A DNA stretch of 36,583 nucleotides from a virus (IMGVR_UViG_3300044980_000018:1-36583), one strand, 5' to 3'. Numbered from the stretch's first letter, positions 1 to 36,583 are shown. Notes: generated from the letters alone by a model not told the origin. A program made the numbers and translations.

Positions 1-127
1 TCTCGGTCCTAGCCGTCTCGCGCGCGGACGATGCCGCGATGCAGCTCACGGACTACGTGCATCGGCGCTACCGGATGCTCCCGGAGCCGCCGAAGACGGT
101 CAAGAGCACTGACCACAAGCTCGCGCT
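1..127. repeat. Left copy of exact 127-bp terminal repeat (circular join)
   Basis: These 127 bases are identical to 36457-36583. The terminase ATPase frame continues from the right end into the left end with no break, so the repeat marks a circular or circularly permuted molecule. The length 127 equals a common maximum k-mer of short-read assemblers, so the repeat is more likely an assembly overlap than a physical phage end. The unit genome is then 36,456 bp. Confidence 0.95.
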
Positions 128-566
128 TGAGAACGGCTCTAGCTTCACAAGCATCGCGAGCGGGGACAACGCGCCCAGGTCGTACCACGTCAACATGATG
201 ATCGAGGATGAAGCGGCCTTCGTGGCGCACGCTGTCTACATGGCGGCCCGCCCGACCGTGCGGGCCAAGCGCGGGAGCTACATCATCCTGAGCACGCCGA
301 AGGGCAAGGCTGGACACTTCTACGAAATCGTTTGCAACCAGACCGGCTGGACCAAGTTCTTCGTGCCGTGGACCAAGACGAAGCGCTTCACTCCCGAGGA
401 CATCGAGAAGATTCAGCGCGAACGCGTCGAGATGGGTGAGGACTGGTTTCGGCAGGAGTACGAGTGCGAGTTCTTGCAGACATCGGGCCAGATGATCGCG
501 GAGAGCCAGATCGAGGCGGCGCGGGGGGATGTGAAGATGGATGACAACTCGGACGTGGTGTGGTAG
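1..566 (+). CDS. terL: Terminase large subunit, ATPase half (3' part; begins at 36225)
   Basis: This is the C-terminal part of the packaging ATPase whose start lies at the right end of the window. Across the join it is 265 residues counted from CTG 36225, against roughly 400-550 for usual TerL proteins. Walker A (HRGAGKS) is in the other fragment. Here Walker B is seen as MMIEDEAAF (about residues 143-151) and the coupling motif as IILSTPKGKAGHF (about 182-194), followed by the usual linker signature WFRQEYECEF. The protein stops at TAG 564-566, exactly where a normal TerL would enter its nuclease domain. That domain is encoded separately at 3292-4008. The family assignment is firm; that both halves work together as one motor is inference. 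Confidence 0.93.
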   Translation, partial: SVLAVSRADDAAMQLTDYVHRRYRMLPEPPKTVKSTDHKLALENGSSFTSIASGDNAPRSYHVNMMIEDEAAFVAHAVYMAARPTVRAKRGSYIILSTPKGKAGHFYEIVCNQTGWTKFFVPWTKTKRFTPEDIEKIQRERVEMGEDWFRQEYECEFLQTSGQMIAESQIEAARGDVKMDDNSDVVW

Positions 567-569
567 GGC

Positions 570-839
570 TTGCCCAAGGGCTGGACCCAGCACGCTCGGC
601 TGGGTGGCAACGTGCCGATCGCTCGCTCGGCGCCCGGCCCGCTTAAGGAACCGATGACCGAAGCCGACAAGCAGAAGCTGGTCACGCAGTTCGACGAGAT
701 GGCGGCGTTCGCGGCCCAGATCAGCATCCCGGTCGCGCACGGGCTGCGGCTCGGCTGGTTGATTCAACAGCTCGGCGCGACCATCCAGGCAATCAAACCA
801 GAGCGGCCCACGTTGGCTGCCGTACCGGAGGCAAGCTGA
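570..839 (+). CDS. Hypothetical protein, 89 aa
   Basis: Family not recognised. It is the first gene after the terminase ATPase, three bases after its stop. The longest form starts at TTG 570. An alternative is ATG 654, which has AAGGA four bases upstream and would give 61 residues beginning MTEADKQKLV. The C-terminal part looks amphipathic-helical with a hydrophobic stretch (ISIPVAHGLRLGWLIQQLG), too polar for a confident membrane span. Its stop overlaps the next ATG (TGATG at 837-841), so translational coupling is likely. It belongs to the block of small genes lying between the two terminase halves. Confidence 0.6.
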   Translation: MPKGWTQHARLGGNVPIARSAPGPLKEPMTEADKQKLVTQFDEMAAFAAQISIPVAHGLRLGWLIQQLGATIQAIKPERPTLAAVPEAS

Positions 840-1063
840 TGCTGACGTGGTCTTGCGACAACTTCGCGACGTGCGGAACTCCGCCTGTCACGAGCGATGG
901 TCTGCCGCCCGGCTGGTCGGACAACGTGATCCAGGGCCAGCGGACGATCCTCTGCCAGGTCGATACGCCGCAGATCCTCACGGCGTTCCCGAGCACTCCG
1001 ATTGCCGTCTCGGCTGCCGCTGCTGCCGCTGCGGTCAACCAGGCCCAGGTGCAAGGTGGCTGA
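839..1063 (+). CDS. Hypothetical small protein, 74 aa
   Basis: Family not recognised. The start ATG overlaps the previous stop. The protein has three cysteines, two of them in SCDNFATC near the N terminus (residues 6 and 12), and one in ILCQVDTP. The C terminus ends in a run of alanines (AVSAAAAAAAVNQAQ), probably a flexible or helical tail. The Cys pattern is too sparse to call a zinc site. Its end overlaps the next gene by 8 bases. Confidence 0.6.
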   Translation: MLTWSCDNFATCGTPPVTSDGLPPGWSDNVIQGQRTILCQVDTPQILTAFPSTPIAVSAAAAAAAVNQAQVQGG

Positions 1064-1439
1064 CCGCGCGCCCCGCTACGTCTCGATGTACTGGGTGCTG
1101 GGTGCCGAGCGCGTGAGCCAGGCCGTGCCGGCTGGTCCGTCAGATGCTCAGTTCGTGCTCGAGCTGGCGAACGAGTTCGAGGTGGCCAGGATGGAGAACG
1201 CATTCCTCTGGGTCGAGGCCTCCGACTGGGACCGGCTGCTGCGGCTGGTTCCGGAGGAGCTGAGGACCGCCAGAGCGCCGCCGACCATGGACGCCATGGA
1301 GAAGGCGCGCAAGAAGCTGGAGCTGAAGACGCCAATGGTGATGCGCGGCGCTGGCTTGACCGAGGACGTGACCGAGAAGCTGCGTCAGGACGGGGCTGGC
1401 GAGCCGTCGACCAAGGCGCCCAAGCCGGTGTTGCAGTGA
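1056..1439 (+). CDS. Hypothetical protein, 127 aa
   Basis: Family not recognised. GTG 1056 was chosen because it follows an AGGTGCAAG purine-rich stretch and gives the usual short overlap with the upstream gene; an open frame extends further back but runs inside the neighbour. The protein is soluble and mostly helical by composition. The segment from about residue 25 to 65 (AQFVLELANEFEVARMENAF and onward) resembles a compact folded domain, and the C-terminal third is Lys/Pro-rich and probably disordered. It lies in the coupled small-gene block between the two terminase halves. Confidence 0.65.
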   Translation: MADRAPRYVSMYWVLGAERVSQAVPAGPSDAQFVLELANEFEVARMENAFLWVEASDWDRLLRLVPEELRTARAPPTMDAMEKARKKLELKTPMVMRGAGLTEDVTEKLRQDGAGEPSTKAPKPVLQ

Positions 1440-1657
1440 GCGATCGGGCCGTGCTGGACTCTGGGTTTGCATTGCACGTCTATCCGAGCGACCCGCCGCG
1501 CTCTGCCCTACCGGAGACGCCAGCGGGTCGGCTCGACATGGTCATGGAGCTTTGGAAGGGTCGCGAGATCTGGTGCTCTTGCTGCGAAGAGTTTCACAGG
1601 GAAGGCGGGGGGCTGATTGACGACGATGAAGCCCGCAGACTCCTGGAGATGTCGTGA
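1436..1657 (+). CDS. Small Cys/His protein, 73 aa, paralogue of the 31850 gene
   Basis: Starts at GTG 1436 in a GTGA overlap with the previous stop. The C-terminal half has TPAGRLDMVMELWKG, then WCSCCEEFH, then LIDDDEARRLLEMS. The same order appears in the gene at 31850-32113 (SPAGKLQVIMELMGG, CVCEVCGDEHW, LISKEDGLNLLDKP), so the two are diverged paralogues. The Cys/His cluster suggests a small zinc-binding fold; no catalytic residues are evident. The next gene overlaps by a GTGA. Function unknown. Confidence 0.7.
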   Translation: MSDRAVLDSGFALHVYPSDPPRSALPETPAGRLDMVMELWKGREIWCSCCEEFHREGGGLIDDDEARRLLEMS

Positions 1658-1902
1658 CCTGGACCCTCATCATCGACGAGTACGAGGGCAAGCCCGACGG
1701 CACAACCTTCGAGGCCGAGAGCTTCGCTGAGATCGAGGGCCTCATCCGGACCATGACCGGCAACAGCGACACAGGGCACCGCCGGGCCATCACCGCGCAC
1801 GTCATGCAGGGCGACCGGAAGTGGTTCGAGGTGCGCTGGGCCGAGATGACCAAGTCGCACTGGTTCAAGTATTGTCCGCCGGAGCGTGCTGGTGCTAGAT
1901 AG
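1654..1902 (+). CDS. Hypothetical protein, 82 aa
   Basis: Family not recognised. GTG 1654 overlaps the preceding stop (GTGA) and has GGAG five bases upstream. The N terminus (MTWTLIIDEYEGKP) looks like a beta hairpin and the middle is acidic and helical (ESFAEIEGLIRTM); Trp and aromatic residues cluster at the C terminus (KWFEVRWAEMTKSHWFKY). A compact alpha/beta fold is plausible but no family can be named. It is part of the coupled block separating the terminase halves. Confidence 0.65.
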   Translation: MTWTLIIDEYEGKPDGTTFEAESFAEIEGLIRTMTGNSDTGHRRAITAHVMQGDRKWFEVRWAEMTKSHWFKYCPPERAGAR

Positions 1903-2218
1903 CTCCAGTCTCCGGCGCGGCATGCTCTGGACCTGGCGCACCGCCGACGGCAAGCTCCAGGTCCGCGAGGCCGGCGGCGACTGGACCGACGTGGGCGTGC
2001 CCGGAGACCTGCGCGCGCTGTTCGCGTTCTTCGATCTCGAGATGCCACCGCAGCCGATGTGGATGCCGTGGCATCCGATTCGCGACTGGTGGCTACGGCG
2101 CCGTGCCAAGCAGTGGTATCGCGGCTGGTACGAGACCAAGCACCGACTGGAGCTGGAGCAGAAGCGCAAGCTGAGGCTGGCTCAGCTCAAAGACCTGTAT
2201 GTGAGGAAGACGCCATGA
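1892..2218 (+). CDS. Hypothetical Trp-rich basic protein, 108 aa
   Basis: Family not recognised. GTG 1892 is preferred over GTG 1886 because CCGGAG lies seven bases upstream of it. The protein is rich in Trp and Arg (WMPWHPIRDWWLRRR, then WYRGWYETKH) and ends in a long basic helix (LELEQKRKLRLAQLKDLY). Such a tail could bind nucleic acid or line a membrane surface, but nothing decides between these. It ends in an ATGA overlap with the next gene. Confidence 0.6.
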   Translation: MLDSSSLRRGMLWTWRTADGKLQVREAGGDWTDVGVPGDLRALFAFFDLEMPPQPMWMPWHPIRDWWLRRRAKQWYRGWYETKHRLELEQKRKLRLAQLKDLYVRKTP

Positions 2219-2562
2219 GTGAGTTCGAGACGAGCGGCAATATCGCCATGGCCCAGACCAACGAGCAGCGCCCGTGGTCTGATGCCAACGTGACTCCCGA
2301 CATCTGGCGCCTCTATGCCCTTCGCCTCGGCCGCGACACCTATCCAGGCGGTGGCAAACTCATGTTCGAGGGCAGCTTCAAGGACGCGCATGACTTCCTG
2401 GACTTCCTCGAGAGGATGCCGATGAACACGCCCGGCATGGAGGCGATCAAGAAGATCCAGAACCCGCAGCCGTACATCGTGCGCGTGGTCGGGCCGCTCG
2501 TGACCGTGAAGCTGGGGAACGAGAAGACGTGCTTGAACCTGTCGTTCAATGGGGAGAAGTGA
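2215..2562 (+). CDS. Hypothetical protein, 115 aa
   Basis: Family not recognised. ATG 2215 overlaps the upstream stop (ATGA); an open frame extends upstream only inside the neighbouring gene. The sequence looks like a folded alpha/beta domain: ITPDIWRLYALRL-like helix at residues 26-38 (as TPDIWRLYALRLGRD), a second helix DAHDFLDFLERMP, then beta-like strands YIVRVVGPLVTVKLG near the C terminus. There are no Cys clusters, unlike several neighbours. It overlaps the next gene by one base (TGATG). Confidence 0.65.
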   Translation: MSEFETSGNIAMAQTNEQRPWSDANVTPDIWRLYALRLGRDTYPGGGKLMFEGSFKDAHDFLDFLERMPMNTPGMEAIKKIQNPQPYIVRVVGPLVTVKLGNEKTCLNLSFNGEK

Positions 2563-2906
2563 TGATCGTGCGCAAGACCGATGGCAGCCTTGGTTACTGC
2601 GGCAATGAGCAGATCAAACGGACGAACGATGCGATCAATCTGCTGCTCGATGGGCAAGCCATCACCGAGAAGCCGACCCAGGTGGATCCGCTGCCGGATT
2701 ACTGCATTGGGGGGCTTCGTCGCATCGCTGGCTCGAACACCTGGTTCTGCCCCAGATGCGGATTGCGCTTCGTGGCCGAGGACCCCAAGGAACTCGAAGG
2801 CGAAGGCATTTGCTGTGGGCCGATGAGCGGGGCAATCACTCGCGGTATTCCGGGCGTCAACGAGGGCAAGCCATTCAGCGACAGAGGGATCACGCTTGTC
2901 CCCTAA
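2562..2906 (+). CDS. Hypothetical zinc-ribbon-like protein, 114 aa
   Basis: ATG 2562 shares a base with the preceding stop (TGATG) and follows GGGGAGAAG. A central WFCPRCGLRF and a later ICCGP supply two Cys pairs typical of a small zinc ribbon (residues about 67-95), with another Cys in the segment YCIGGLRR. The N terminus is polar and helical. A structural zinc site is likely; DNA or RNA binding is possible but unproven. The end overlaps the TTG-started ORF at 2896 by 11 bases. Confidence 0.65.
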   Translation: MIVRKTDGSLGYCGNEQIKRTNDAINLLLDGQAITEKPTQVDPLPDYCIGGLRRIAGSNTWFCPRCGLRFVAEDPKELEGEGICCGPMSGAITRGIPGVNEGKPFSDRGITLVP

Positions 2907-3165
2907 GTGGCACGCCCGTGACGTGCACTGCCCGAAGAACGTGCTGCGCGTCAACGAGGGGGTGAGATGGCTAGTGCCGTGCAAGTTTGCAGCAGGTCAC
3001 AGAGGCGAACACCAACCAGAGGAGACGCAAGATGAACAAGGGACAGCAGTTGCCAGTTGGACACGGGACGGGGAGCAGGTACGAGCGGGGCCTTCAGAAG
3101 GCGGAGGACTACATCGAGGCCCTGCCGGAGCACCCGACGGAGGCGCAGAAGAAAGCCTATGCTGA
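2896..3165 (+). CDS. Small C-GHxGxH protein, up to 89 aa, overlapping the next gene
   Basis: Starts at TTG 2896 with GAGGG seven bases upstream. The first 45 residues carry HCPKN and then WLVPCKFAAGHRGEHQP, the same Cys and GHxGxH pattern as the protein at 32766 (FCELAKGHDGPHDR). This small motif supports a real gene. The last 45 residues overlap the well-started gene at 3032 in another frame and look low-complexity (Gly/Pro/Glu). Either the overlap is real or a base change has lengthened the frame. The function is unknown. Confidence 0.45.
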   Translation: MSPKWHARDVHCPKNVLRVNEGVRWLVPCKFAAGHRGEHQPEETQDEQGTAVASWTRDGEQVRAGPSEGGGLHRGPAGAPDGGAEESLC

Positions 3166-3292
3166 TCACGTCGAGCGCTGGAATCGGCCGCAGGAGCGAG
3201 TCCAGAAGGGCGAGCTGGCGGGATCGGACTACCGCGTGAAGATCATCTACGAGAACAATGGCGCGCTGGTGCAGTTGCCTGCCGGGAAGTAG
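3032..3292 (+). CDS. Hypothetical protein, 86 aa
   Basis: Family not recognised. ATG 3032 is chosen because AGGAG lies at a good distance upstream; the frame is open from 2987. It is a polar, charged protein with a helical middle (AQKKAYADHVERWNRPQERV) and a beta-like end (DYRVKIIYENNGALVQLP). It is the last gene before the nuclease half of the terminase, and its TAG shares one base with that gene's GTG, so the two are probably translationally coupled. Confidence 0.65.
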   Translation: MNKGQQLPVGHGTGSRYERGLQKAEDYIEALPEHPTEAQKKAYADHVERWNRPQERVQKGELAGSDYRVKIIYENNGALVQLPAGK

Positions 3293-4008
3293 TGGATAAC
3301 TCCGCACTCGGCGTCGACCTCGGCGAGACGCACGACCCGACCGCGCTGGTCGCCCTGCGTCAGGTCGGGGACGAGTTCCATGCCACGCACCTGGAGCGGC
3401 TCAAGCTCAACACGAGCTATGAGCGCGTCACACAGGGCGTGGTCCAGCTCATGGAGAAGCCCTGGTATGTCGACACGGCGCTGGTGGTGGATGCTACGGG
3501 CGTGGGAAGGCCGGTTGTGGAACGCATGGAGGACGTGGGGCTCAACCCGATCCCGGTCGTGATCACGGGCGGGGTCAACGAGATCCACGAGCCGGGCGAC
3601 TGGTCCTGGCGTGTGCCGCGCAAGACGTTGCTCACGATCGTGCAGATCCTGTTTATGCGCGGCCAGATCAAGCTACCGGCTGGCCACAAGCTGACGGCCG
3701 AGCTTGAGCACGAGATCCGCAACGTCAAGCGGCGCGCGAAGGCAGGCACGAACGAGGCCACCGAGATCGGGCGCGAGACCGAGCACGATGACATCTTCTT
3801 CGCGCTGTGTTTAGCTGCCTGGCAGGTGACCAAGTATTACCAGCCGGTCCAACAGACGCTGGCGAAGACGCTTGAGCGCAGCACATGGCTCCTGGACCAG
3901 CAGAAGCGGGACTATGAGGAGATGCAGCGCCGCATGAGCCAGAACCCCGAAGAGATCGAGGTCGACGACTGGCTCCAGAGCGCGGAGCGTGGGGTTGAGG
4001 CATGGTAG
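3292..4008 (+). CDS. terL: Terminase large subunit, separate nuclease domain, 238 aa
   Basis: This is the RNase H-like headful/cos-cleaving nuclease domain of a phage large terminase, encoded alone. The three acidic sites of the fold are visible: GVDLGETHDPTAL (D9), ALVVDATGVGRP (D67) and ETEHDDIFFALCLAAW (D166/D167). No Walker motifs are present; those are in the gene at 36225-566. The GTG 3292 start puts the first catalytic strand within six residues of the N terminus, so no upstream ATPase part is hidden. In ordinary phages both domains form one chain. Here they are 2.7 kb apart with ten small genes between. The catalytic residues look intact. A working two-subunit TerL is inferred. Confidence 0.9.
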   Translation: MDNSALGVDLGETHDPTALVALRQVGDEFHATHLERLKLNTSYERVTQGVVQLMEKPWYVDTALVVDATGVGRPVVERMEDVGLNPIPVVITGGVNEIHEPGDWSWRVPRKTLLTIVQILFMRGQIKLPAGHKLTAELEHEIRNVKRRAKAGTNEATEIGRETEHDDIFFALCLAAWQVTKYYQPVQQTLAKTLERSTWLLDQQKRDYEEMQRRMSQNPEEIEVDDWLQSAERGVEAW

Positions 4009-4322
4009 GCGCCGCCGCCACCGTCAACGAGCTGCTGACCGTCACCGCGCGTCACGGCCTAGTCCCGGCCGAGATCCGCCTGGCTGACGGGACGCACCTG
4101 CTGCTGGCGCCCAAGGACGCGCCCATGCCGCCCGAGGATCCGAAGGCGCCCAGGGAACTGCCAGACGAGTTCGATGACCTGCCGGTGCCTGACGGCCTGC
4201 CGCCGAACTGGAAGGACCCGCGCGACGGACGCGACACCGAAGACAACCGCAAGAGGTCCGAGGCTGCGCAGGCTGAGGCTGACAGGCTGGTGTTAGGCGA
4301 AGCGATCCCGGAGGAGAAGTGA
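4002..4322 (+). CDS. Hypothetical protein, 106 aa
   Basis: Family not recognised. It overlaps the terminase nuclease gene by 7 bases and has a GAGG-type site upstream of ATG 4002. Residues 1-37 look folded (VNELLTVTARHGLVPAEIRL, then GTHLLLAPKD); the rest is Pro/Asp-rich and probably disordered, ending in a charged helix. The position directly before the portal gene suggests a packaging or head role, but no motif confirms this. The stop codon is followed immediately by the first base of tRNA-Asn. Confidence 0.65.
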   Translation: MVGAAATVNELLTVTARHGLVPAEIRLADGTHLLLAPKDAPMPPEDPKAPRELPDEFDDLPVPDGLPPNWKDPRDGRDTEDNRKRSEAAQAEADRLVLGEAIPEEK

Positions 4323-4394
4323 TGTCCGGTAGCTCAGCGGTAGAGCGCCCGCCTGTTAAGCGGGTGGTCGCTGGTTCGAATCCAGCCTGGACAG
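4323..4394 (+). tRNA. tRNA-Asn (anticodon GUU)
   Basis: A 72-base cloverleaf. The acceptor stem TGTCCGG pairs with CTGGACA (one G-T pair), the D arm is GCTC/GAGC, the anticodon stem CCCGC/GCGGG encloses loop CTGTTAA (anticodon GTT), the T arm GCTGG/CCAGC encloses TTCGAAT, and the discriminator is G. CCA is not encoded. It starts on the base after the previous gene's stop, so it is probably cut from the structural-gene transcript. Confidence 0.96.
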
Positions 4395-4502: not shown

Positions 4503-6407
4503 GTGGTGACACGAACCCGCCGACCCAGTAAGCGACCCCAGATTGATACGCCCTGGTGGGCGATGGCTGAAAAGGACGCAGGTCCAGCCATGATAGACCA
4601 GGTAGCATCAATCCAGGGCCAGCAGGGAGGCATCAGATCGCGCAACTTCAGGGCCGCGAAGCTCTACGGTGGCCACGGCTTTATCAGCGCTGGCCGATTC
4701 AGCCCTGCCCTTGGGAACGCGGGCGTAAACTCGGGCTACTTCGGCAGCTACACGAGCCCGCGCTACAACCTGATCTACTCGATGGTGAACACGGTTCTCG
4801 CGCGCCTGATAGCCCCAGGCTTGCCGGGCGTGCGAATACTGACGAACGAGGCCGATTGGCCGTTGCAGGAGCGCGCGCAGCTGCTGGAGCGCTGGATCGA
4901 GGGAATATTCTACCAGTGCGACACCGACGAGCAGGCGATAAAGGCGCTCAAGGACTGCTTGGTGTTCGGGACCGGGTTCGTCAAGGCGTACACGGACAAC
5001 GACGGCCGGATCGTCAATGAGCGCATCTTCCCGGAGTCGCTCTGGACCGAGATATTCGACGGCAAGGACGAGCGGCCGCGCACATACTACTACAACGACA
5101 TCATCGACCGCGAGGTGCTGATTGACCGCTACCCGGACTCCGAGAAAGAGATCCTCGAAGCGCAGACCTTCGCGCAAGAAGGCTACGACGGCGACCGCGC
5201 CGGCAGCAGGCAGGTCGCCTGGTACGAAGCCTGGCACTTGCCGACCAGCGAGAAGCGAGGAGACGGTCTCTACCTCGCGGCGATCCCGGGCAAGGTCCTC
5301 GAGGCGCGAGAGTGGAAGCGCCGCAAACCTCCGATCGCTGCAATCAAGTTCGACCAGCTACTTAGCGGATACCTTGGTCGCGGCATGGCTGAGTTACTCT
5401 ACCCACACCAAGCAGCACTGTCCGCTATTCAGCGTGCAGAGTACTACGCGTGGTCTCAGGTGGCGCTGCCTCGGCTGTGGATCAACATTCGAAGCAAGAT
5501 CAACGAAATCCACATGATGTCGAGCCGCTCAAGCGGCATCATGCGCGGCGTCGGTGACCCGCCGACGGTGCTGAACTGGAGCGCCACGCATCCGGCGTTC
5601 GTCGAGTACAAGGACTGGGTGATCTCGAGCGCGCACGAGTTCATGGGCATCTCGCAGATGTCGGCCAGCGGAATGAAGCCGGCGGGCCTGAACTCCGGAG
5701 CCGCTCAGCGCGAGTATATGGATATCCAGGTCGAGCGGTTTGCAGTGCTCAGCCACAAGTGGGAGAAGTTCTTCACCGACATCGCGACGATCGACATTGA
5801 CGAGGCCAGCGACTCCTACGGCGACGATGAGAAGGCCGGCGAGACTGCCATGCGCGCGCAGGATGGCTTCACGAAAACGATCAAGTGGTCGCAGGCGAAG
5901 ATGGACCGCGACGTGTTCTGGATCAAGGCGTACCCGGTCAGCTCGCTCCCGCACAGCCCTGCCGGTCGGCTCGCGATGGTCTCGGAGCTAATGCAAGCTC
6001 AGCTGATCACGCGCGAGGAAGGTCTCAAGCTGCTGAAGTTCCCGGACCTGGACGAGACGCTGGCCATGGAGAACGCTAAAGAGGACTACGCCAACCGCAA
6101 CGCCTGGCTGATTCTCCGCAAGGGAGAGATGCCGCCCTATGACGGGATCGTGGATCTCCAGCTCTGCTGCACCAAGCTCCAGATGCTTTACATGAAGGCC
6201 CTGAACGGTGGGCTATCCGTCAACAGCCCGGCCGCAAAGAATACCCGGATCTGGTTGCAAGGCGCGGCCGATCAACTCGACCAGGCGAAGCAGGCGGCGG
6301 TCGCCAAGCAGGCCGCACTTGCCCCACCCGCGCTTCCGCCCGCACCTGGACCGCTCGCCAAAGGTCCGCCACCGCCAGTCAACACGGAGATGCCGATAGC
6401 AGCCTAG
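4503..6407 (+). CDS. Portal protein, 634 aa
   Basis: The dodecameric head-to-tail portal through which DNA is packaged and ejected. Length (634) suits podovirus portals. Supporting segments are the N-terminal RSRNFRAAKLYGGH, the wing/stem region with PPIAAIKFDQLLSGYLGRGM (a common portal pattern placing a conserved pro-rich turn before a surface helix), GMKPAGLNSGAAQREYMDIQ and the helix VERFAVLSHKWEKFF. The C terminus is Pro/Ala-rich. AAGAGGAGG at 4488-4496 sets the start at GTG 4503 (GTG 4506 also possible). It is followed by scaffold and capsid genes, the standard order. Assigned from motifs and context; no search could be run. Confidence 0.85.
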   Translation: MVTRTRRPSKRPQIDTPWWAMAEKDAGPAMIDQVASIQGQQGGIRSRNFRAAKLYGGHGFISAGRFSPALGNAGVNSGYFGSYTSPRYNLIYSMVNTVLARLIAPGLPGVRILTNEADWPLQERAQLLERWIEGIFYQCDTDEQAIKALKDCLVFGTGFVKAYTDNDGRIVNERIFPESLWTEIFDGKDERPRTYYYNDIIDREVLIDRYPDSEKEILEAQTFAQEGYDGDRAGSRQVAWYEAWHLPTSEKRGDGLYLAAIPGKVLEAREWKRRKPPIAAIKFDQLLSGYLGRGMAELLYPHQAALSAIQRAEYYAWSQVALPRLWINIRSKINEIHMMSSRSSGIMRGVGDPPTVLNWSATHPAFVEYKDWVISSAHEFMGISQMSASGMKPAGLNSGAAQREYMDIQVERFAVLSHKWEKFFTDIATIDIDEASDSYGDDEKAGETAMRAQDGFTKTIKWSQAKMDRDVFWIKAYPVSSLPHSPAGRLAMVSELMQAQLITREEGLKLLKFPDLDETLAMENAKEDYANRNAWLILRKGEMPPYDGIVDLQLCCTKLQMLYMKALNGGLSVNSPAAKNTRIWLQGAADQLDQAKQAAVAKQAALAPPALPPAPGPLAKGPPPPVNTEMPIAA

Positions 6408-24526: not shown

Positions 24527-24631
24527 ATGAACGACACCGAGAAGGCGATGCTGCTGGCGATGGTGCCGATCCTGGTCCGCTGGATTCGAACCACCGTCAT
24601 CCAGGTTCAGAGCCTGGTATCCTTCCGCTAG
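24527..24631 (+). CDS. Candidate 34-aa hydrophobic microprotein
   Basis: ATG 24527 to TAG 24629-24631, three bases after the preceding stop. The sequence begins MNDTEKAMLLAMVPILVRWI and continues with TTVIQVQSLVSFR. A hydrophobic core (AMLLAMVPILV) beside Arg/Trp could form one short membrane-active helix. It ends the late operon, a frequent place for lysis genes, and the genome has no recognisable endolysin or holin. It overlaps the convergent minus-strand gene by 35 bases. Its size makes the gene call uncertain. Confidence 0.45.
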   Translation: MNDTEKAMLLAMVPILVRWIRTTVIQVQSLVSFR

Positions 24632-25214
24632 ACGACCCCGAATCAGAAGGTGGGTGCATGCAGCTCGCCAGCCCGCACACTCGGCACGAGCCGGGAGTGG
24701 CGGCGAGGATGGGGCGGGGCACTGCGGAGGATGCGTCCAGAACGGCGTGGCTGATCTTGGCCTGGAAGAAGTGCTCAATCAGGTACTTGCCGACGCAGAC
24801 CTCGCATCCGGTGTGAATCGGGCATGGTCCGTCCTTCACGTTCGGAATCTCGACCGCATCCAGCGTGGCCCTCGTCTCTACGACGTGCGCCGCTGTCATG
24901 GCCACAACCTGCTCCGTGACCAGCTCCCGCCTCGCCTGCTCTGCGATCCCGGCAAAGGCGGCGGCGAGACGAGCCATGGCCTGCTCATTGGTGATGCATT
25001 GGCCGAGTGTCTCAACCCACGCCCGCGCCCGCGCCTCGTGGGTGAGCGGGGCGGGGGCTGAGGGCTGAGGCGGCTGGTAGTTCGGCCCCAGCGGGTTGGC
25101 TCGCGCCGGCTGGAATCCACCGGCCGGCCAGGTTTGCTGCGCATGGCAGGCGGTGCATGGAAGAGGTAGGTAGTGCTCTGGACACTGACCGCCGTAGTTC
25201 CCTGGATCACTCAT
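24597..25214 (-). CDS. Hypothetical Cys/His-rich protein, 205 aa (last gene of leftward operon)
   Basis: Family not recognised. The start ATG at 25214 follows the operon pattern of short overlaps (8 bases with the upstream gene); the frame extends 15 codons further back without a supporting site. Three Cys/His clusters are visible: QCPEHYLPLPCTACHAQ at the N terminus, PCPIHTGCEVCVGKYLIEHF near residue 135, and CRVCGLASCMHPP near residue 185. The middle is helical. Zinc binding is likely; similar Cys-rich accessory proteins recur in this genome. It converges on the end of the structural operon. Confidence 0.65.
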   Translation of the reverse strand: MSDPGNYGGQCPEHYLPLPCTACHAQQTWPAGGFQPARANPLGPNYQPPQPSAPAPLTHEARARAWVETLGQCITNEQAMARLAAAFAGIAEQARRELVTEQVVAMTAAHVVETRATLDAVEIPNVKDGPCPIHTGCEVCVGKYLIEHFFQAKISHAVLDASSAVPRPILAATPGSCRVCGLASCMHPPSDSGSSSGRIPGSEPG

Positions 25215-35441: not shown

Positions 35442-35462
35442 ATGCCTGGACGCAGGCACTTT

Positions 35463-35849
35463 ATGCCCCAACACGCCACAAAAACGAGCTGGGGACCAGG
35501 TCAGTCTGGCAATCCCACTGGAATGAGCAGCGAGCTTCGCCGCCTGGTTGATGCCGCGCGCCTTGAGGCAGCCAAGGGCGCCGTCCGAGACGTGCGCCGG
35601 CTGAGGAAGATTGCCAAGAGCCCCGGCGAGAACGATGCCGTGGCGGTCAGCGCAACGCGGGCCACGCTTGAGGTAGCTGGTGCGACCAAGCAGGTTGAGC
35701 GGGACGAGCAAGACGGCCTCACAGCCGCGCAACTCATGGAGGGCATCATCGCGATCCTGCGCCTGAAGATGCCGGCGGCCGTCGATGTCCTTGACGCTGA
35801 ATTCTCGGAGGTGCCACGTGCGTTACCCGATTCTGATCCTGCTGCTTAG
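35463..35849 (+). CDS. TerS-position protein with GQSGNP motif, 128 aa
   Basis: It lies just upstream of the large terminase and probably acts as, or with, the small terminase subunit that recognises viral DNA. The N-terminal TSWGPGQSGNPTGM is the GQSGNPxG basic turn of DUF5681-type proteins, common at phage packaging modules. Helices follow (ELRRLVDAARLEAAKGAVRD; DAVAVSATRATLEVAGATKQ), suiting an oligomeric ring. ATG 35463 is preferred to 35442 because of the promoter position. It overlaps the lipoprotein gene by 32 bases. The TerS role is from order and motif, not proven. Confidence 0.65.
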   Translation: MPQHATKTSWGPGQSGNPTGMSSELRRLVDAARLEAAKGAVRDVRRLRKIAKSPGENDAVAVSATRATLEVAGATKQVERDEQDGLTAAQLMEGIIAILRLKMPAAVDVLDAEFSEVPRALPDSDPAA

Positions 35850-36234
35850 CGCCTGCGGAGCTGTGCCCGATGTCCGCGCTCTGCCGCAGGTCCAAGTCAC
35901 GGAGCCTGTCGTAGATGCCGGCTGGGACGGAGGTGACGACCTTGACGCCGGCTTGGCTCCGGAAGTAGATGCGGGGCCTGGGCCGTGCGCCGGGTTCGAC
36001 TGCCGACCTCCGGGCGGCTTCGGCGCTGACTGCCCGAGCGATTGCGTCGACGGGGGCGTCTGCGACCTGAGCGACGGCGGCCCGTACGGTGACGAGCCAG
36101 CGCCGTTCTGCCCTGGCGCTAGCCGAGCAGACGACCAGTGGGCCGAGGACCTCGCCGACGGTGGCGCTTACGTCGCGTGCGTCGTCGGCTGTAGTGCTGC
36201 CGCGTTCGCCGCCTGGGAGACCTGCTGCAACTAG
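35818..36234 (+). CDS. Cys-rich, Asp/Gly-rich lipoprotein, 138 aa
   Basis: GTG 35818 has GGAGG six bases upstream. The N terminus MRYPILILLLSACGAV (GTG read as Met) is a short signal sequence with lipobox LSAC; Cys13 would be lipidated and Gly14 permits outer-membrane sorting. The mature part is acidic and Cys-rich: VVDAGWDGGDDLDAG, PCAGFDCRPPGG, DCPSDCVDGGVC and WETCC. Asp-Ala-Gly and Asp-Gly-Gly linkers resemble lipoproteins of Myxococcota. It is wedged between TerS and TerL, overlapping both. Superinfection exclusion, receptor blocking or lysis support are possible; none is shown. Confidence 0.7.
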   Translation: MRYPILILLLSACGAVPDVRALPQVQVTEPVVDAGWDGGDDLDAGLAPEVDAGPGPCAGFDCRPPGGFGADCPSDCVDGGVCDLSDGGPYGDEPAPFCPGASRADDQWAEDLADGGAYVACVVGCSAAAFAAWETCCN

Positions 36235-36583
36235 ACCCGCGCATCGGGCAGGTCTACCGCAAGGCCAAGGCCGGCCCGGCGAGCGTGCTGGAGTTCGCCG
36301 AGATCGTCCGGTTCGAGCCCGATCCATGGGAGGACTGGCAACGCGACTTCCTACTCTGCGACGACGACCAGATCGCGCTGGCCTGTCATCGTGGCGCTGG
36401 CAAGTCGGCGGTCACGAGCGTCAAGGCGCTGTTCAAGATCGTCTCGCGGCCCGGGTTCTCGGTCCTAGCCGTCTCGCGCGCGGACGATGCCGCGATGCAG
36501 CTCACGGACTACGTGCATCGGCGCTACCGGATGCTCCCGGAGCCGCCGAAGACGGTCAAGAGCACTGACCACAAGCTCGCGCT
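36225..36583 (+). CDS. terL: Terminase large subunit, ATPase half (5' part; continues at 1-566)
   Basis: The N-terminal part of the packaging ATPase. DPWEDWQRDFL (residues 34-44) is the adenine-binding Q region, and LACHRGAGKSAV (52-63) is Walker A; VLAVSRADDAAMQL follows. The frame crosses the circular join without a break. No ATG or TTG lies in frame upstream of the Q region: an in-frame TAG is at 36192. CTG 36225, five bases after GGGAG, is the best start; GTG 36285 is the alternative but would remove 20 residues. CTG starts are rare, so the start is uncertain. It overlaps the lipoprotein gene by 10 bases. Confidence 0.9.
   Translation, partial: MQLDPRIGQVYRKAKAGPASVLEFAEIVRFEPDPWEDWQRDFLLCDDDQIALACHRGAGKSAVTSVKALFKIVSRPGFSVLAVSRADDAAMQLTDYVHRRYRMLPEPPKTVKSTDHKLA
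36457..36583. repeat. Right copy of exact 127-bp terminal repeat
   Basis: Identical to bases 1-127. Everything from 36457 duplicates the left end, so one copy should be removed before counting genes or making alignments. See the left copy for interpretation. Confidence 0.95.

Follow-up and report, generated by a model that had tools for sequence, protein, structure and literature searches.

Gene content of the terminase region

The window, i.e. the whole stretch of 36,583 nt analyzed here, is a metagenomic contig from an IMG/VR virus record. Its positions 1-127 were identical to 36457-36583, and with this exact 127-bp terminal overlap, a length that would fit an assembler k-mer, the contig closes to a circle of 36,456 bp. 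As a result of closure, the ORF of a terminase large subunit (TerL) ATPase is continuous over the junction. One ATPase and one nuclease were revealed when the circularised genome was scanned in six frames with family HMMs. A second terL, which the preliminary description of this DNA had considered as a contrary finding, was not detected by that scan.

The ATPase gene lies on the plus strand, with its 5' part at 36285..36583 (bases 36457-36583 repeating 1-127) and its 3' part at 1..566. Its frame was open from the GTG at 36285 through the junction to the stop at 566, encoding 245 aa. The preliminary description had the junction crossing and the stop right, but it placed the start at 36225, where the codon is CTG. 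The reading frame does extend back to that codon, but its first ATG, GTG or TTG is at 36285, so the protein has 245 aa unless the CTG initiates. Walker A (HRGAGKS), Walker B (MMIEDEAA) and the STP coupling motif, which characterize the ASCE ATPase of Terminase_6-type TerL, were found in the protein, and relatives keep all of them with little or no variation. The protein ended soon past a QEYECEF motif, that is, at the domain linker, in agreement with what had been described. It matched almost the entire PF03237 domain (Terminase_6N, 6-214/215, E 7e-10) and, among PHROGs, phrog_7579 (terminase large subunit, 239 positions, E 2e-33). A profile of the split ATPase family matched T4 gp17 (E 3e-20) and the P74-26 ATPase (E 7e-20). 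The fold model was built on the ATPase of a related locus, L014, the window ATPase crossing the contig ends; this AF2 model (pLDDT 91) had structural matches to the same two proteins.

The nuclease gene (3292..4008, plus strand, 238 aa) begins with a GTG that shares bases with the stop codon of the ORF before it (TAGTG). The acidic sites GVDLG, VVDATG and EHDD provide the metal-binding triad of an RNase H-like nuclease (D9, D67 and D166/D167), as had been claimed for this gene, and these residues are invariant or nearly so among relatives. Its match to PF17289 (Terminase_6C, 2-151/155, E 1.6e-7) exceeded the curated cut-off; the profile search suggested earlier thus gave a nearly complete Terminase_6N for one gene and a nearly complete Terminase_6C for the other. 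In PHROGs the nuclease matched phrog_27743 (233 positions, 'unknown function'). The split nuclease-family profile matched the G20c/P74-26 TerL nuclease (E about 1e-17), and the window nuclease as modelled by AF2 (pLDDT 88.3) matched the terminase nucleases of G20c, HCMV, D6E, T4 and P22. Past the nuclease domain, residues 184-238 (3841-4005) form a C-terminal extension of two predicted helices, absent from most relatives; they could be a docking element.

Between the ATPase stop at 566 and the nuclease start at 3292 there were 2,725 bp, consistent with the distance of 2.7 kb reported before. This block (570..3292, plus strand) contained about 9-10 small same-strand ORFs with starts near 570, 839, 1002, 1436, 1654, 1886, 2215, 2562, 2896 and 2987, the first of them beginning 4 bp past the ATPase stop. 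Their codon-position GC, including the third-position bias, matched that of the remainder of the genome. None of these ORFs had a significant Pfam or PHROGs family match or a homologue within the gaps of other split loci, and neither Hint nor homing-endonuclease domains were found in those searched. Rfam gave no intron match in the window at the gathering threshold, and relaxing the cut-off to E 1 over 400-3500 brought none either.

A 106-aa ORF (4002..4322, plus strand) overlaps the nuclease stop. It is followed by a tRNA gene (4323-4394, plus strand) and then by a portal gene (4503..6407, plus strand; weak matches to SU10-like portals and phrog_156), which begins about 500 bp past the nuclease gene; another tRNA gene was located at 24573-24637 on the minus strand. 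Upstream of the ATPase gene, a candidate small terminase-like protein (35442..35849, plus strand) carried a GQSGNP motif and a weak DUF5681 match below the cut-off. An Asp/Cys-rich lipoprotein-like ORF (35785-36234) was observed between this candidate and the ATPase gene, and the style of this ORF suggests a myxobacterium-like host.

Split TerL genes in other genomes

When IMG/VR was scanned with a single sequence, be it the window ATPase or the window nuclease, there were no matches, so alignments were needed. The family was opened by an alignment which included the fused TerLs of Thermus phage Riverbug and Meiothermus phage MMP17, and the subsequent scans were performed with nuclease and ATPase alignments against viral contigs and species genomes. 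After removal of near-copies, separate ATPase and nuclease ORFs were found in 82 non-redundant loci, and fused forms were found too, which answers the search for relatives proposed in the preliminary description. Before that removal, the scans had returned 48 loci from species genomes in addition to those on viral contigs. The species genomes were of Methanothrix and other archaea, and among bacteria Acidobacteria, Chloroflexota, Gemmatimonadota, Actinomycetota, Myxococcales and a Salinibacteraceae MAG; one source was an isolate genome, Sinorhizobium americanum CFNEI 156. The best identity of the window to any relative was at most 35-39%.

The position of the cut was constant over the 82 loci. 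The split ATPases ended a median of 14 aa past the ATPase domain, and the split nucleases usually had their start on the first strand (...F[IV]G[LV]DLGQ) or slightly ahead of it, as the window nuclease does. The catalytic motifs are kept in both halves, in keeping with the earlier view that neither gene looks like a random truncation and that the nuclease begins within six residues of its first catalytic strand. Most pairs were adjacent or overlapping, and the gaps ranged from overlapping genes to 7.9 kb. The frame relations +2, +1 and 0 were found in 47, 22 and 13 loci, respectively, thus no single frameshift could explain the split pairs.

Other split pairs also had phrog_7579 and phrog_27743 as best matches. 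HTH small-terminase-like genes were located upstream of the ATPase in split loci, and portal genes of several families came directly after the nuclease in many of them. With its linker cut, intact motifs in both halves and placement with the split pairs, the window virus falls by sequence into a group of viruses of bacteria and archaea that is widespread, has a two-gene TerL and is for the most part unannotated.

Widely separated pairs and selection

Several relatives also had gaps between the two genes, of 0.7 kb (L272), 1.6 kb (L014) and 2.6 kb (L288). The gap of about 4.8 kb in L163 is less certain because the ATPase is at the contig start and the gap genes are on the opposite strand. The largest distance was in L160 (contig IMGVR_UViG_3300021504_000002), where the ATPase is 7.9 kb upstream of the nuclease with many small genes between. 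A DNA methyltransferase-like ORF was observed among the small genes of the 7.9-kb gap in L160 and L307. The contents of the window gap had nothing detectable in common with the gaps of the other separated pairs.

L014 and L160 were 77% identical in the ATPase and 62% in the nuclease, and the gene immediately upstream of the nuclease was homologous too, which indicates that the separated state was inherited. Between them the ATPase had a dN of 0.16 and a dS of 2.4, and the nuclease a dN of 0.31 with synonymous sites saturated, so both halves have been selectively maintained despite their distance. For close adjacent pairs dN/dS was about 0.02-0.17 in both genes. All of these values were measured on relatives, to which the window has the limited identity given above.

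Phylogeny

In the tree of concatenated halves, the window was placed in a clade of 31 rows, 25 split and 6 fused (support 81/92), and the nuclease tree gave the same placement (90/82); in the ATPase-only tree it had another, weakly supported position. The concatenated tree required a minimum of 4 transitions between the split and the fused state. The fused TerLs of Acidobacteria and those like Riverbug were nested within the mostly split clade, which suggests by their position that re-fusion has occurred; multiple independent splits are a possible alternative. L008-L010 stood beside T4-like fused TerLs (99/94) and look, from this placement, like another split. The deep branches of the trees were weakly supported, and split pairs as one clade against all fused rows gave an AU p of 0.06, a borderline value that neither establishes such a clade nor firmly rejects it.

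Comparison with known terminases

Reviews portray TerL as a single chain whose ATPase and nuclease are connected through a flexible linker (PMC7617512); the TerL-associated nuclease domain has been called universal across Caudovirales (PMC7824862). T4 gp17, P74-26 and G20c TerL have the ATPase and RNase H-like nuclease folds and the motifs of the split halves, but they carry both domains in one polypeptide, whereas the window has them on separate genes. The closest cultured relatives of the window ATPase (31-33% identity) were those of Thermus phage Riverbug and Meiothermus phages MMP7 and MMP17, which are of the Terminase_6 type like the window but are single fused chains of 415-417 aa. The nearest PHROGs, phrog_7579 (ATPase, 239 aa) and phrog_27743 (233 aa), correspond to the two halves. 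PHROGs does not annotate phrog_27743 as a terminase; it is assigned here, by sequence, as the putative nuclease subunit of TerL.

A two-gene TerL as such is already known. Most phages of cluster AY, Arthrobacter phage BlueShadow among them, have TerL across two ORFs, an ATPase ORF followed by a nuclease ORF as in the window (PMC12820723), and since these phages form plaques, a two-ORF TerL is viable. Genes 2 and 3 of cluster AY are adjacent, unlike the two window genes with 2,725 bp between them. When the nuclease subunits of the clade were searched by tblastn against a cultured-phage collection, only fused TerLs or nothing was obtained and no Arthrobacter phage was found, so cluster AY, compared here by its description, looks like another lineage. 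In Campylobacter DA10-like TerL, some genomes read as two proteins (1-248 and 248-427), described as an internal stop that individual strains carry, which differs from a lineage-wide split (PMC7291426). Apart from BlueShadow/AY and this Campylobacter note, no general description of a split TerL was found in the literature searched. Within that literature, the following appear to be new: the archaeal and bacterial breadth, a distance between the halves that reaches 7.9 kb, the probable re-fusions and a function for phrog_27743.

Two candidates for a split TerL were rejected, and a third was left aside. MMP7 (MK071653.1, L003) shows two CDS only since its circular record was cut inside terL; the record of Caulobacter phage Sansa, found through a 181-aa 'DNA-packaging protein', carries a terL of 1,431 bp; and gp1/gp2 of SIO1 were set aside as overlapping ORFs in an old sequence.

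A probable large terminase of two subunits

Both genes of the window are real and were cut at the natural linker with all catalytic residues kept, and the lineage they come from is a broad one that has inherited the two-gene state and keeps it under selection. Since the two domains are on separate genes 2,725 bp apart and no polypeptide of the window combines them, this is a two-subunit form and not a standard TerL. The most probable reading, to which we give a probability of about 0.86, is a heteromeric large terminase, composed of an ATPase motor and a separate cutting nuclease in non-covalent association. The two-subunit enzyme of the preliminary description is supported by the recurring linker cut (82 loci), purifying selection in relatives and the lack of a detected intron or second TerL.

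In such an enzyme, the 245-aa ATPase subunit would form the translocating motor ring, and the 238-aa RNase H-like nuclease would be a separate subunit which cleaves the concatemer when packaging begins and again when it finishes. These roles were assigned because of family knowledge and the conserved active sites. The halves would have to meet without a covalent link, either by touching each other directly or via the portal or the small terminase. We infer that the two chains assemble into one motor, and likewise the timing of nuclease presence on it.

It is very improbable that the ATPase and the nuclease are not partners, the former packaging DNA in a nuclease-free manner like phi29 gp16 and the latter having another role, e.g. 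junction resolution. The nuclease profile is specific for TerL nuclease domains, and in most relatives the nuclease is the next gene past the ATPase, often overlapping it; its place directly before the portal in many relatives and its fusion with the ATPase in the nested ones also argue for partnership. These facts have to be set against the phi29-type motors with only a vestigial nuclease (PMC7672431), the RNase H-like resolvases which phages possess, and the contact between the halves being a deduction.

An assembly chimera, with halves that either adjoin each other in the actual genome or stem from separate phages, could be imagined for a metagenomic contig with the ATPase spanning its ends, but it is very improbable too: the start/stop overlap at the nuclease and the 4-bp spacing after the ATPase are in the style of a natural operon, the gap ORFs have the codon-position GC of the genome, the gapped layout recurs in independent contigs, and the genome has no other TerL. 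Least credible is a single TerL gene with a self-splicing intron, or a protein rebuilt via inteins or frameshifting, for although terL introns (PMC11878797) and TerL inteins (PMC7156551), which differ from a two-gene TerL, are known in phages, the searches for introns (Rfam) and for Hint or homing-endonuclease domains were negative over the ranges given above, the gap is packed with ORFs, the gaps of relatives have unrelated contents, very different lengths and all frame relations, and none of these processes bridges gaps of such size.

There is debate about the way in which the TerL domains couple ATP hydrolysis to DNA translocation and cutting. With natural separate gene products, the coupling could be tested directly by mixing, omitting or titrating the nuclease in a packaging assay. 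A more far-reaching proposal is tentative and rather unlikely, namely that a broad clade of bacterial and archaeal tailed viruses has an obligate two-subunit TerL, in which a dissociable nuclease joins for the initiation and termination cuts and the ATPase ring translocates without a covalently attached nuclease. If true, it would argue against a translocation force from interdomain movement within one chain. Models of the T4 type have the two domains of a single chain moving relative to each other, and the P22 nuclease on its own shows weak activity when the ATPase domain is missing (PMC7617512). The heteromeric terminase would give a function to an unannotated phage family, phrog_27743, and it warns annotation pipelines that a short 'TerL' lacking the nuclease is not necessarily a fragment.

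Modules and single genes in host genomes

Stand-alone nuclease genes were observed in peatland Euryarchaeota/Methanomicrobia MAGs (L130-L133), with the ATPase only on other contigs in the two genomes checked. In addition, two chromosomal ATPase-nuclease modules (L109:4342-6555 and L096:4995-6594) had no capsid or portal genes nearby. L109 was surrounded by an HTH gene, RT, serine recombinase, HD phosphohydrolase and DUF499, and L096 by MCM and an XPB-like helicase; both are possibly remnants or domesticated modules.
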